A stretch of 64,000 nucleotides of DNA. Origin: Psychroserpens algicola (GTDB lineage Bacteria > Bacteroidota > Bacteroidia > Flavobacteriales > Flavobacteriaceae). Made by a program: the position numbers and the translations under genes. The DNA is taken from positions 1,054,001 through 1,118,000 of the forward strand of contig NZ_JACNMJ010000001.1 of the NCBI RefSeq assembly GCF_014526325.1, in the 5' to 3' direction. The notes below the pieces were generated by a model, which ran no database searches, was not told the DNA's origin, and was given only the letters and a program-made list of their open reading frames with translations. Shown here piece after piece: positions 41,293 to 45,382 of the stretch (within the stretch, counting starts at the first letter, position 1; every line of letters begins with the position of its first letter).

Positions 41293-42666
41293 ATGACACA
41301 GCGCCACATACAACATTTATATTGGAGGGCAGGTTTCGGAGCTACACCAAATCAATTCAGAACCTTGACTCATAAAAGCAGAAAAGACGTCGTAGATGCC
41401 TTATTTTCTAACTCTAAAACGATGTTGCGTTTAACAGTTGACACCTCTGATATACTTCCTTTGGTTTCTAAAGAATTACTTAAAAATAAAAGTAAGCGAA
41501 TGGAGTTTGCTAAGCGTAGTAGAGAAAAACTCAAAAAATATAATGTGATTTGGGTAAATCGCTTAGTAACTTCTGATGCAACATTAAGAGAAAAGATGAC
41601 CTTGTTTTGGGCGAATCATTTTGTATGTCAAGACCAAAATATCTTTCATGTACAACAATATAATAATACCCTAAGAACCTATGCTCTTGGTAATTTTGGT
41701 GATTTTGTAAAGGCAATTTCAAAAGAGGCTGCTATGCTTAAATATTTAAATAATAAGCAAAACCGAAAGCAAAAGCCAAATGAAAATTTTGCCAGAGAAC
41801 TTATGGAGTTGTTTACTTTAGGAGAAGGACATTACTCAGAAGACGATATTAAAGAAAGCGCTAAAGCTTTTACGGGCTATGATAATAATTTCAAAGGTGA
41901 ATTTATACTTCGAAGGTTCTATCATGATGATGATTTTAAAACTTTTTTTGGACACACAGGACGTTATGATGGCGATGATATTATTGATATCATTTTAAAA
42001 CAAAAGCAGTGTGCTCGTTTTATATGTGGAAAAATCTACAAGTATTTCGTTAGTGACACTATACATGAAAAACGAGTTGAAGAATTAACAAATATCTTTT
42101 TCAAAGACTATAATATTGAACGCTTAATGCACCATGTGTTTATGTCTGACTGGTTTTACGAAGAAGCCAATATAGGAACAAAGATAAAATCTCCAATTGA
42201 GTTTTTAGTCGGTATGAGAAAAACAGTACCTGTCACTTTTGAAAAAACGAATGATGTTTTAAAAATTCAAAAATTACTCGGACAAACATTATTAAATCCA
42301 CCAAATGTAGCAGGATGGTCTGGTGGAAAAAACTGGATCGACAGTAATACTATTATGTTGCGATTAAAGTTACCATCAATTATTTTATCCAATGCTAAAA
42401 TATCAATACGTGAAAAAGGTGAGTTTGAGGATACATTTGAAACATATTACAACAGTAAAAAGAAGAATAGGTTTGTAACCGTAAAAGTAGACTGGGATAC
42501 ATTTAATACTCAATTTAAAAGCTTCTCGGCTAACGAATTAAAGTCACAAATTATAGTTCCAAAGTTAAGTGATGGAACTGAAACTTATCTAAAGACATTA
42601 AGTCAATCGTCTAAACAAGACTTTTGCGTTCAATTGATGTCAATACCTGAATATCAAATGTGTTAA
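41293..42666 (+). CDS. DUF1800 domain protein
   Basis: A 457-residue DUF1800 protein. Family features are the start HLYWRAGFGATPNQ, the MTLFWANHFVC segment, ARELMELFTLGEGHYSEDDI and PPNVAGWSGGKNWID. It has no obvious signal peptide in its first residues. Function is unknown. The DUF1501 gene begins two bases after its stop. DUF1800 and DUF1501 genes are paired in many Bacteroidota, Planctomycetes and Proteobacteria, so the proteins probably act together. Length is within the family range. Confidence 0.93.
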   Translation: MTQRHIQHLYWRAGFGATPNQFRTLTHKSRKDVVDALFSNSKTMLRLTVDTSDILPLVSKELLKNKSKRMEFAKRSREKLKKYNVIWVNRLVTSDATLREKMTLFWANHFVCQDQNIFHVQQYNNTLRTYALGNFGDFVKAISKEAAMLKYLNNKQNRKQKPNENFARELMELFTLGEGHYSEDDIKESAKAFTGYDNNFKGEFILRRFYHDDDFKTFFGHTGRYDGDDIIDIILKQKQCARFICGKIYKYFVSDTIHEKRVEELTNIFFKDYNIERLMHHVFMSDWFYEEANIGTKIKSPIEFLVGMRKTVPVTFEKTNDVLKIQKLLGQTLLNPPNVAGWSGGKNWIDSNTIMLRLKLPSIILSNAKISIREKGEFEDTFETYYNSKKKNRFVTVKVDWDTFNTQFKSFSANELKSQIIVPKLSDGTETYLKTLSQSSKQDFCVQLMSIPEYQMC

Positions 42667-42668
42667 TT

Positions 42669-43859
42669 ATGGATAGAAGACATTTTTTAAAACAATCAAG
42701 CCTTGCAAGTAGCCTTTTTTTTGTGCCTAGTTTTATAAAGGCATTTGAAAACTTTTCAGCGTCTAGTTTGGGGTATAAACGATTAGTGATTATTCAGCTG
42801 TCGGGAGGAAATGATGGTTTAAATACAGTTATTCCGTTTAATAATGATACATATTATCGCAATCGCCCCAAAATTGCTATTCCCAAAACAGATGTGCTAA
42901 GACTTACCGATGAATTAGGGTTTCATACCAGTTTATTGCCACTTAAAATATTATATGATGCAGGTCAACTTACTATTATAAATAATGTAGGATATCCAAA
43001 TCCTAATCGGTCTCATTTTAGAGCAACCGATATATGGCAAACAGGAAGTGGTGCACACCAATATATACAAACCGGTTGGATTGGACGCTATTTGGATGCC
43101 TACGGAAATAAGCCATATAATGCGATCGAAATTGATGATAGTTTGTCCTTGGCTTTAAAAGGAAAGCAAACCCATGGGATTGCAACAACTAATCCCGAAG
43201 TGTTGTTTAGAACATCTCAAGACCCATATTTTAAAAATGTTCTTAAGCATTATAAAGATGAGCATCTCAGTGAACATAATTTAGGTTATTTATATAAAAC
43301 AATGATTTCGGCAGAATCTTCTGCTACATATATTTTTGAAAAACATAAAACAGCATCTAGCACGCAAGAGTATCCAAAGAATACATTTGCTAATCAGTTA
43401 AAAACAACGTCTAGACTGATAAGCTCAGGTATAGAAACAAAAGTATTTTATGCGTCTCTTGGCGGATTTGACACACATGCTGGTCAATTAAATAGTCAAT
43501 CACGTTTGTTAAAAATATATGCAGATAGTATTCAAGCTTTTGTTAAAGACCTAAAGCAGCAAGGAACTTTTAATGATACACTTATTTTAACATTTTCAGA
43601 ATTTGGTAGACGCGTAAAACAAAATGCCGCTAATGGGACAGATCATGGTGCTGCAAGTAATTTATTTGTTATTGGAAACCAGTTAAAAACTCCAGGTTTT
43701 TATAATGAATTAGCTAGTCTTTCTGATTTAGATAGTAATGGAGATTTGAAGTATACTGTAGATTTTAGATCAGTATATGCTACTGTTTTAGACAAGTGGC
43801 TGGCAGTTGAAGATGATGCAATCTTAAATGGATCTTTTCAGAAATTAAATTTTATTTAA
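42669..43859 (+). CDS. DUF1501 domain protein with Tat-like signal
   Basis: A 396-residue member of the alkaline-phosphatase-like DUF1501 family. I use the ATG at 42669, since it starts MDRRHFLKQSSLASSL, a twin-arginine-type signal; an earlier GTG overlaps the DUF1800 stop. The domain carries VIIQLSGGNDGLNTVIP, SFRATD-like HFRATDIWQTGS, GGFDTHAGQ and TFSEFGRRVKQN, which include the presumed metal ligands. Export in folded form to the periplasm is inferred from the signal. Function is unknown. It ends just before the region of structured repeats, which is convergent to it. Confidence 0.93.
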   Translation: MDRRHFLKQSSLASSLFFVPSFIKAFENFSASSLGYKRLVIIQLSGGNDGLNTVIPFNNDTYYRNRPKIAIPKTDVLRLTDELGFHTSLLPLKILYDAGQLTIINNVGYPNPNRSHFRATDIWQTGSGAHQYIQTGWIGRYLDAYGNKPYNAIEIDDSLSLALKGKQTHGIATTNPEVLFRTSQDPYFKNVLKHYKDEHLSEHNLGYLYKTMISAESSATYIFEKHKTASSTQEYPKNTFANQLKTTSRLISSGIETKVFYASLGGFDTHAGQLNSQSRLLKIYADSIQAFVKDLKQQGTFNDTLILTFSEFGRRVKQNAANGTDHGAASNLFVIGNQLKTPGFYNELASLSDLDSNGDLKYTVDFRSVYATVLDKWLAVEDDAILNGSFQKLNFI

Positions 43860-43865
43860 ATGCCT

Positions 43866-43938
43866 AAAAAACAAAAACCCTGTTTCACATTCGATACATC
43901 GACAATGAAACAAGGTTATATGTAATTGATTAATAGCA
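43866..43938 (-). ncRNA. Predicted small RNA, copy 1
   Basis: On the minus strand the sequence starts with the conserved TGCTATTAATCAATTACATA. It then forms a stem AACCTTGTTTCA/TGAAACAGGGTT (12 pairs with one U-G), enclosing a second helix TCGA-TGTA-TCGA, and ends in TTTTTGTTTTTT, the layout of an intrinsic terminator. The RNA would be about 73 nt. TACGATTTT, at 43944-43952, sits where a -7 box would be expected. The gene is not coding in any frame I can support and is antiparallel to the DUF1501 gene. This is a sequence prediction only. Confidence 0.55.
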
Positions 43939-44012
43939 CTGCTAAAATCGTAAAAATTAAGGTTGCTTTCTAAAAAAAACTATAAGTGGTAAAAAAAACT
44001 GTATGAATGGTA
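43871..44012. repeat. 142-base repeat unit, copy 1
   Basis: Aligns without indels to 44086-44227. Conservation is strongest in the stem-loop arms, the loop, the 19-base segment following it and the ATGAATGGTA end. The segment 43939-44000 is much more diverged. This pattern suggests functional modules, not recent copying of junk. Confidence 0.85.
43982..44012 (-). promoter_or_regulatory. LytTR-type direct repeat upstream of small RNA 1
   Basis: On the minus strand TACCATTCAT (44003-44012) and TACCACTTAT (43982-43991) are spaced exactly 21 bases start to start, with a T-rich spacer. LytTR-domain response regulators bind such 9-bp direct repeats 12 bp apart. The site would sit at about -44 to -74 of the predicted RNA start, a position suited to activation. 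Confidence 0.45.
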
Positions 44013-44079
44013 GTTATAAAATTTTTCTAAGCTAAAAAACGGAATTTTTAAAACAATTTGGAAAGATTAGTAATCTTAT

Positions 44080-44153
44080 AAAAAAACAAAAACCTTATTT
44101 CGTATTCGATACATCGACATTGAAATAAGGTTATATGTAATTGATTAATAGCA
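44080..44153 (-). ncRNA. Predicted small RNA, copy 2
   Basis: Same design as copy 1. The conserved leader TGCTATTAATCAATTACATA is followed by a stem AACCTTATTTC/GAAATAAGGTT (11 perfect pairs), the same TCGA-TGTA-TCGA inner helix, and a tail TTTTTGTTTTTTT. Relative to copy 1 a G-C pair has become A-U on both arms and a U-G pair has become U-A, so pairing is kept while sequence changes. The upstream TACGATTTT is also conserved. The tail is on the minus strand only, which sets the direction. Confidence 0.55.
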
Positions 44154-44227
44154 ATCCAAAAATCGTAAAATGCTTAGTAATTGTAGAATTAATACTACAA
44201 GAGGCAAAAAAAAAGGTATGAATGGTA
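44086..44227. repeat. 142-base repeat unit, copy 2
   Basis: Direct-repeat partner of 43871-44012, at a constant offset of 215 bases. The two units are separated by 73 bases with no visible feature. Together they fill most of the 389-base gene-free stretch 43860-44248. Confidence 0.85.
44197..44227 (-). promoter_or_regulatory. LytTR-type direct repeat upstream of small RNA 2
   Basis: On the minus strand TACCATTCAT (44218-44227) is followed 21 bases later by TGCCTCTTGT (44197-44206). The second half-site is less conserved than in copy 1 (7 of 10 bases shared with TACCACTTAT) and the T-rich spacer is kept. Confidence 0.4.
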
Positions 44228-44248
44228 ATTTATACCAAATTACTTCGA

Positions 44249-45382
44249 TTAACTGTACTTAACCTTCCTTAATATTCGAGTAGCTTCTTGATATGAACTA
44301 TACACAGATGTACTGTGTTTTTTTAAATATGGCTTAGCTTCGTTAAGTTTGTCTATTGCTTCATGAAATAAGTTAAGATAGCAAATAAGATAAGTTGCAG
44401 GTAGGTTATTAAGGTCTAACTCCTCATTTTTGTTAAGAGTCAACCCTTTCTTTAATTTTTCTAAAATAGCATTATTGGCATTGTAGATATGGTGTAAAAC
44501 TTTCTTATCAAATTGTGGTGGTTCAAATAAGAGTTTGGTTTCAATATTATAATGAGCATTATCTTCAAAATGAATGATGGTTTCTTCGAGTTTATAATAT
44601 TTGTTTTGATTTTGAAGTCCTAAGCTAACATATTCAACAATCTTAAATGTATCATTATTATAGGTTATAGCGACTTCATCAAGAGTAGAAAAAAATAAAC
44701 GTACCTGCTCATTAATTAATTCAATATCAACTCTTGAGTAAAACACATCTTCTTTAATTATTTTTTTCTGTCCAGACCAACACAAGACAAAATATTCCTT
44801 AAATACTTTGTATTGAGGGTTGTAATCTTTTCGCTTATTCATAAAATCGAAAACGCCATCTAAAGTGTACTCGATATTATTTTGAGCATGAGACTCAATA
44901 GCATGAACAATTTTTGAATTAACATCTTTTATTTCAATATCAAAAACCTTGGGCATACTCATACTGCCATCTCTAAAGAAGACAGAACCACCATAATATT
45001 TCCAGATATTTTTTCTTAACGATGTAATTTTATCGATAGGTCTGATAGTGACCAATCCAACAACCTTATCGTCTGGTAAATGTGGAAATGGAATATTTTC
45101 GTACTGTACAATTGGAGGATTTGTAAGATAAGCATTGATGAGGTTTTGAATTTTGCTGTCATCAAAAAAGTTAACACCAATTATCTTGTTGTCTTCATCT
45201 TCAACACCAATTACGATATACGAATTGTTTTTAGGATTGCTGTTTGAAAGTGCACATATATGCTTTAGAAACTTCGCCTTTCCTTCTTTATGAGTGATAT
45301 CTACTTTTCGCTTCTTATCATAAAAACTGTTCTCATCATTGTGAGCAAGTAAATTTTTAATAAGTAAACGTTTGTTAATCAT
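44249..45382 (-). CDS. AlbA_2-domain (Schlafen-like) protein
   Basis: A 377-residue cytoplasmic protein. The N-terminal third (about 15-150) is an AlbA_2 domain, with HKEGKAKFLKHICALSNS and SYIVIGVEDEDNKIIGV, found in nucleic-acid-binding or regulatory proteins related to Schlafen and often annotated as ATP-binding. The remaining part (about 150-377) is not recognised; its end is helical and lysine-rich. The start overlaps the stop of the upstream phosphodiester-glycosidase-like gene by four bases (ATGA), so the two are coupled. It is last in a five-gene operon. The function is unknown. Confidence 0.75.
   Translation of the reverse strand: MINKRLLIKNLLAHNDENSFYDKKRKVDITHKEGKAKFLKHICALSNSNPKNNSYIVIGVEDEDNKIIGVNFFDDSKIQNLINAYLTNPPIVQYENIPFPHLPDDKVVGLVTIRPIDKITSLRKNIWKYYGGSVFFRDGSMSMPKVFDIEIKDVNSKIVHAIESHAQNNIEYTLDGVFDFMNKRKDYNPQYKVFKEYFVLCWSGQKKIIKEDVFYSRVDIELINEQVRLFFSTLDEVAITYNNDTFKIVEYVSLGLQNQNKYYKLEETIIHFEDNAHYNIETKLLFEPPQFDKKVLHHIYNANNAILEKLKKGLTLNKNEELDLNNLPATYLICYLNLFHEAIDKLNEAKPYLKKHSTSVYSSYQEATRILRKVKYS

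Follow-up and report, generated by a model that had tools for sequence, protein, structure and literature searches.

Organisation of the S1 locus

The window, a stretch of 64,000 nt from contig NZ_JACNMJ010000001.1 of Psychroserpens algicola, carries two tandem units, S1-A and S1-B, on its minus strand. Upstream of them lies a syntenic gene for an SLFN_AlbA_2 and DUF5929 protein (44249..45382, minus strand; Pfam PF04326 and PF19351), and their convergent neighbour is a gene for a DUF1501 protein (42660..43859, plus strand; Pfam PF07394). An earlier note, made from the letters of this DNA, had described two minus-strand units at a constant offset of 215 bases and free of indels. Both points were borne out, as the operators start at 44227 and 44012, and MAFFT aligned S1-A with S1-B from operator to T-run with no internal gaps.

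In each unit, a tandem LytTR-like operator is followed by a -7 box, then by the 5' tail TGCTATTAATCAATT, and finally by a terminator hairpin and its T-run. Counting from the operator start, ACCATTCAT is followed by a second 9-mer 21 bases on, TACGATTTT lies at base 60 and TGCTATTAATCAATTACATATAACC at base 74. The operator of S1-A (44195..44227, minus strand) comprises ACCATTCAT and GCCTCTTGT, 21 bases apart, starts 74 bases before the RNA, and has a score of 16/18 and a matrix match of 43.4; that of S1-B (43980..44012, minus strand) comprises ACCATTCAT and ACCACTTAT at the same distance, with a score of 18/18 and a matrix match of 49.4. The operator thus stands upstream of the RNA start, as the earlier note had placed it, spanning -74 to -42 before the 5' T with its repeats 21 bases apart (9 + 12). 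The -7-like box TACGATTTT is found 60 bases from the operator start in both S1-A (44159..44167, minus strand) and S1-B (43944..43952, minus strand), and presumably fits the Bacteroidota -7 box.

From the presumed starts, S1-A is a predicted small RNA of approximately 74 nt (44080..44153, minus strand) and S1-B one of approximately 73 nt (43866..43938, minus strand), a prediction based on folding, copies in relatives and stem covariation. Each has a 14-nt 5' word, GCTATTAATCAATT (44139..44152 in S1-A and 43924..43937 in S1-B, minus strand), recognised by word counts and alignment, and a terminator hairpin with an inner helix and then a T-run (44091..44132 and 43876..43917, minus strand), recognised by folding and covariation. 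The conserved sequence, the stem with its inner helix and the T-run previously reported for each unit were all recovered, TGCTATTAATCAATTACATATAACC being identical in S1-A and S1-B, and so was the exchange within the stem, with A-U against G-C on both arms plus U-A against U-G. Folding energies were -16.6 and -21.7 kcal/mol (z -4.0 and -5.8), and 0/200 shuffles were equally stable.

S1 is a conserved RNA family of Flavobacteriaceae

The proposal of a multicopy small-RNA family behind a LytTR-type operator gained support from copies elsewhere, from compensatory changes in the stem and from the fixed distance of the operator. Copies were found in both the genus and the family. A scan of the fetched loci gave 43 copies of S1 in 22 of the 23 genomes of the window's genus, mostly two or three in each; of the 22 other genus genomes, 21 have the RNA core and the remaining one (G003) has one diverged copy. 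A covariance model of S1, run with stricter filters, matched 55/199 family genomes and 54/198 genera at E<=0.01, the weakest matches being less certain. In named genomes, 81 stretches fitted a fixed pattern, mostly in Winogradskyella, Psychroserpens and their kin. Six pattern matches in other phyla (L269, L271, L277, L290, L305 and L307) had no hairpin, looked like chance and were dropped before the counts. Copies in tandem are usual within the window's genus; of the loci seen beyond it, most have a single copy.

In 74 distinct sequences the ten-pair stem of S1 was paired in 97.6% of cells, and changes on both sides were seen at 6 of the 10 pairs. None of 500 shuffles was as good, a figure that is not a probability because the 74 sequences are related, and sliding the partners by one to three columns gave 32-60%. 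The hairpin and its T-run are thus conserved with compensatory changes, as in a small RNA ending at an intrinsic terminator. The tail GCTATTAATC is invariant across the 74 sequences, in part by choice, since 53 of the 74 rows of the alignment (A4; reduced from 92 to 73 rows by removal of near-duplicates, with one window row added) had been picked by the fixed pattern beginning TGCTATTAATCA; it is also present in all 28 printed model-found loci, though the model weights the tail.

The genomic setting of S1 is conserved as well. The AlbA_2/DUF5929 gene lies upstream on the same strand at 95 of 101 S1 loci (94 distinct S1 cores, so that in some cases the same genome is present twice), within 500 nt at 85 of them and 865-1177 nt away at the other 10. 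In four of the six loci lacking this gene, the available sequence reaches no more than 156 bases upstream of S1. A DUF1501 gene lies opposite S1 at 64 of the 101 loci, a count to be read knowing that many loci end too soon to tell. Among the 27 S1 loci found by the model, two (G027 and G031) are in the model, and the AlbA_2/DUF5929 gene is present at 24 of the other 25, which gives independent support for the family. So constant a neighbour, together with the lack of a hairpin, by eye, between this gene and the operator in the window, would also suit a reading in which S1 derives chiefly from the 3' UTR of the AlbA_2/DUF5929 mRNA by processing and has no initiation of its own. We consider that highly improbable: an operator and a -7-like box of its own accompany every tandem copy at a constant spacing, and the 10 loci with the gene at 865-1177 nt speak against it too. 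S1 as a separately transcribed small RNA is the reading followed below.

No described family had been known to fit, and Rfam 15 offers none: neither the window nor 20 related loci matched any of its covariance models at the gathering score. Flavo-1, which the earlier note wished to see excluded, was not among the S1 matches even at E<=10, where five weak, chance-level matches from other Rfam families fell on the S1 stretch, all below the gathering score. By sequence comparison, S1 is a conserved predicted RNA family of Flavobacteriaceae without a match in Rfam. A literature search (subscription papers and supplements outside its scope) found no publication on the S1 RNA, and the titles listed for its sequence letters were likewise off-subject.

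A LytTR-type operator and a candidate regulator

Two 9-bp direct repeats 12 bp apart precede the S1 promoter. Two half-sites scoring at least 15/18 were present in 85 of 110 S1 upstream regions, compared with 10.3% of shuffled regions; upstream regions shorter than 95 bases were left out of this count. Eighty of the 85 operators start at -73/-74 before S1, with a period of 21, and this fixed position is a stronger point than the score, since the half-site was drawn from the same sequences. The other 25 regions, that of G003 included, have no good operator. A scan of the entire G000 genome for the operator pattern, allowing up to 3 mismatches, returned the S1-A and S1-B sites and no others (control 0). 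Compared by eye with the published LytTR repeat consensus, ACCGTTCAT of some copies appears to fit and ACCATTCAT is off at one base.

G000 has 12 LytTR genes. The one at G000:C8:1210990 encodes a receiver-LytTR protein (Pfam) and adjoins a TPR histidine kinase of the PF06580 type. Upstream of it stands TACCAATTATAC-N9-AACCAACTATAC, with the S1 type of operator and geometry; the same arrangement was found in G005, and similar forms precede S1 in other genera. This LytTR response regulator is the best candidate activator of S1, as judged from the operator beside its gene. The operator points away from the LytTR gene, toward a unit designated S0 and then a ribonucleotide reductase gene.

S0 is a small-RNA-like unit situated between the LytTR response regulator gene and the ribonucleotide reductase gene (L313:2337-2530 in G000:C8; L323 in G005). 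Its operator is of the S1 type; it also contains a conserved TGATCGTGGGGATTC, and TGCTATTAATCA stands ahead of its terminator. Against Rfam it gave no match above the gathering score and weak, chance-level matches only. A lipoprotein-like mRNA approximately 3 kb from S1 in G001 (L328, G001:C23:234266) also has the S1-type operator and spacing, and would start with TGCTATCAACAA. The distance from the operator start to the end of TTTG is 72 bases in this mRNA and in S0 of both G000 and G005.

The 14-nt word in other small RNAs and mRNA leaders

The 5' word of S1 is not confined to S1. In the genus, GCTATTAATCAATT occurs at 210 sites in 23/23 genomes, with 2 to 13 sites each and none for the reversed control in any of them, a control that takes no account of preferred codons, which could spell the word (GCT ATT AAT CAA TTx). 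Family-wide, it was found in 85/199 genomes, the control giving single matches in two. The 81 word sites read in nine genus genomes (G000-G005, G009, G011 and G022) comprised 15 in S1, 4 coding, 38 other sense sites, 22 antisense sites and 2 unassigned.

Two further predicted small RNAs account for a number of the sense sites. S2 was present in 8 of the 9 genomes, preceded in most of them by the palindrome ATACGTAGAACTACGTAT and by a gene of approximately 212 aa, which is of the NarL type by Pfam in G000. At L060, L120, L122, L098, L143, L346, L351 and L355, S2 appears as a small-RNA-like unit beginning with the 14-nt word. S3 was likewise present in 8 of the 9 genomes. In mRNA leaders, the word begins a very short 5' leader of a gene for a 46-aa secreted peptide in 8/9 genomes (L065, L354 and orthologues; the peptide had no match in Pfam), and a leader of an ECF sigma factor gene holds the sense word in 6/9. 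Eight sense sites are scattered, among them an OmpA-like leader. The class between murB and the ECF sigma gene was first taken as antisense, and was re-read as a sense leader because of its -7-like box and the gene downstream. S2, S3, the two recurrent leaders (46-aa peptide and ECF sigma) and the opposing RNA A1, described below, recur in other genera.

Elsewhere, the word lies in a conserved stretch in seven other genomes (L169, L171, L173, L184, L185, L189 and L190), 201-269 nt from the start of a divergent gene of 377-378 aa; at L169 this gene reads as aminotransferase-like, with an epimerase-like gene on the other side (both names given by eye). In G068 (L182 and L331-L341), all 12 copies of the word belong to one dispersed repeat unrelated to S1, and were dropped before the counts.

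Several of these observations would agree with another account, in which the 14 letters are a DNA element or a 5'-end signal (an initiation context or a protein-binding site), the complement on the terminator side has another cause, and S1 merely starts with the word. The sense sites often follow a TAnnTTTG-like box by 4-6 bases (by eye), the word resembles preferred codons and has its 4 coding sites in 81, and the G068 copies are confined to a repeat. We nevertheless hold this account to be improbable, on the evidence of the antisense sites, which precede terminators rather than promoters, and of A1, which is absent from most genomes that lack S1.

A complementary RNA, A1, and 3' regions of surface-protein genes

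The exact complement of the 14-nt word was found before the terminator of a second conserved RNA, A1, located beside purE in 7 of the 9 genomes. In an equal number, the complement lies in the 3' UTR of a CAP lipoprotein gene, 7-18 nt past the stop codon, and in 3/9 after fasciclin lipoprotein genes. It also occurs on the far 3' side of an outer-membrane-like gene (3 genomes), and besides at one small lipoprotein gene and one GH28 gene. A terminator stands beside most antisense sites; L068, L153, L154 and L163 score none on the antisense side.

Read against purE, A1 shows a TAnnTTTG-like box, a variable stretch, the complement and a terminator helix, in which 7 of 10 pairs have changes on both sides. 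TTAATAGC is invariant in 24/24 rows of the A1 set, all of which were chosen to hold at least that core (G206, with no A1 core, was left out). The gene purE was located by protein match in 30/30 genomes, 15 with S1 and 15 without. At least 12 of the 14 letters of the A1 word lay within 36 nt of the purE stop in 11/15 S1 genomes compared with 1/15 of the others, kinship being uncorrected. The 15 S1-negative genomes had been picked for having no R1 match and no exact 14-mer, so that an exact A1 was excluded there by choice; 14 of them had nothing above 10/14 and one had 13.

Predicted pairing of S1 with A1

Between the S1 tail and A1 of G000, 14 pairs were predicted at -17.2 kcal/mol; 300 shuffles averaged -7.0, the best of them reaching -14.6. 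S1 has a complementary partner, the 14-nt complement being exact in A1 and in 3' regions; in three genomes (G159, G165 and G178) only 8 contiguous S1-A1 pairs remain. In G003, 19 bases are paired with wobbles, the A1 of G003 and of G031 keeping the pairing through G-U pairs only, and G027 has one compensatory change, at base 13.

Cognate S1-A1 combinations were compared with swapped ones in 23 genomes, with kinship uncorrected. Contiguous pairs numbered 309 for cognates against a mean of 299.8, and 106 of 5000 shuffles were as high; without eight genus genomes, G003 being kept, the values were 196 against 185.4 (60/5000). When total pairs were counted, 192/5000 were as high over 14 letters, and the cognate advantage was not seen over 16 or 18 letters (940/5000 and 4425/5000). 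For the altered seed CTTTT (G159, G168 and G178), no matching complement was found in those genomes; the search, of 11 genomes, gave one place in G174 besides S1, and one control match in G168. For CAGTT (G003, G031 and G165), 10 genomes were searched and no exactly matching complement was found among the 8 places: three S1, S3 of G165, one unassigned place in G003, L384 and L386, and one coding site. In G165, S3 thus shares the changed CAGTT seed with its own S1; L384 and L386 are hairpin-bearing sites of another kind. Evidence for coevolution of the whole 14 nt between the S1 seed and its complement is weak.

Proposed mechanism

By comparison among relatives, each unit almost certainly makes S1, a trans-acting small RNA of approximately 74 nt with a free 5' tail of 14-15 nt and a terminator hairpin. 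Activation of the S1 promoter would come from a LytTR response regulator occupying the pair of 9-bp repeats between -74 and -42, which are separated by 12 bp; we regard this as very likely. The 5' tail of S1 would then pair with the complement in A1 and in the 3' regions of some surface-protein mRNAs, and for A1 such pairing is probable. Taken together, and in whichever direction it may work, the balance leans somewhat toward S1 being a LytTR-controlled small RNA that acts through pairing of the word with its complement.

Sequence does not decide the direction itself. Leaders of mRNAs that have the same 5' word could be bound near the start codon by an A1-type RNA; when the LytTR system fires, S1 would mimic these leaders and soak up A1. 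Other signals would reach this pool through S2, which lies beside a NarL-type regulator gene, and through S3. We tentatively put forward this part of a LytTR-induced decoy for A1 as the most likely role of S1, and prefer it on the ground that the same-sense word is retained in mRNA leaders, where an A1-type RNA alone could read it.

The main rival uses identical parts in the opposite direction. There, S1 would be an ordinary regulator whose 5' seed acts on mRNAs with the complement in their 3' region (among them those of the CAP and fasciclin surface lipoproteins), with A1 as a sponge that would limit S1, S2 and S3. The position of the complement just past the CAP lipoprotein stop and after the fasciclin genes argues for it, as does the presence of several seed-bearing small RNA genes and one A1 gene. 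We think it rather unlikely, since the same-sense leaders of the 46-aa peptide and ECF sigma genes could not pair with S1 and would be left without a reason.

Comparison with known systems and significance

RNAIII under AgrA and VR-RNA under VirR are LytTR-controlled RNAs of Firmicutes. Like S1, a putative regulatory RNA behind LytTR-like repeats, each is a regulatory RNA preceded by tandem LytTR repeats; unlike S1, they belong to another phylum, are longer, and do not consist of a 5' tail and one hairpin. Multicopy small RNAs such as Qrr and the csRNAs resemble S1 in having near-identical copies per genome under one regulator, which for S1 would be the candidate LytTR protein. The 5' word of S1, by contrast, also occurs in small RNAs and mRNA leaders that are otherwise unrelated to it, and a conserved putative partner RNA carries its complement. 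Sponge and decoy RNAs are similarly complementary to another small RNA, a parallel that extends to S1 and A1 as putative antagonists; the S1 system differs in having several decoy-like RNAs with one common word.

In its own family, S1 may be compared with Rfp18 of Flavobacterium psychrophilum, a conserved small RNA of Flavobacteriaceae that is likewise thought to pair with mRNAs (PMC9723704). Rfp18 is predicted to pair through a third stem-loop and to target chiefly metalloproteases, and the main text of that paper contains no occurrence of LytTR (PMC9723704). Rfp18 was set aside as a match for S1 on its differing architecture, as given in the description of it there (PMC9723704).

Small RNAs, siblings and sponges are already known kinds. 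What is apparently new, as far as our searches go, is that unrelated small RNAs and leaders have one word in common and that an opposing small RNA carries the complement of this word; the complementary RNA A1 and the other seed-bearing RNAs, which lie outside the window, are the more novel part of the system than the S1 pair itself.

The wider possibility, to which we give somewhat less than an even chance, is a hub extending through the family. One 14-nt word would start several unrelated small RNAs and leaders, its exact complement being in the opposing small RNA and in surface-protein 3' regions, and different two-component systems would each induce a decoy of their own (LytTR acting on S1, a NarL-type regulator on S2 and some other input on S3), to be summed in a common RNA currency that sets surface-protein expression in Flavobacteriaceae.

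To our knowledge, the usual small-RNA helper proteins are absent or unclear in Bacteroidota. How small RNAs of Bacteroidota find their partners is an open question, and the S1 system offers a compact test of it, with a conserved small RNA, an operator and a candidate regulator, a named complementary partner and defined mRNA ends with the word. If the proposal is true, the network would be wired by one shared sequence read from both base-pairing strands, and not by one small RNA with many loose targets.
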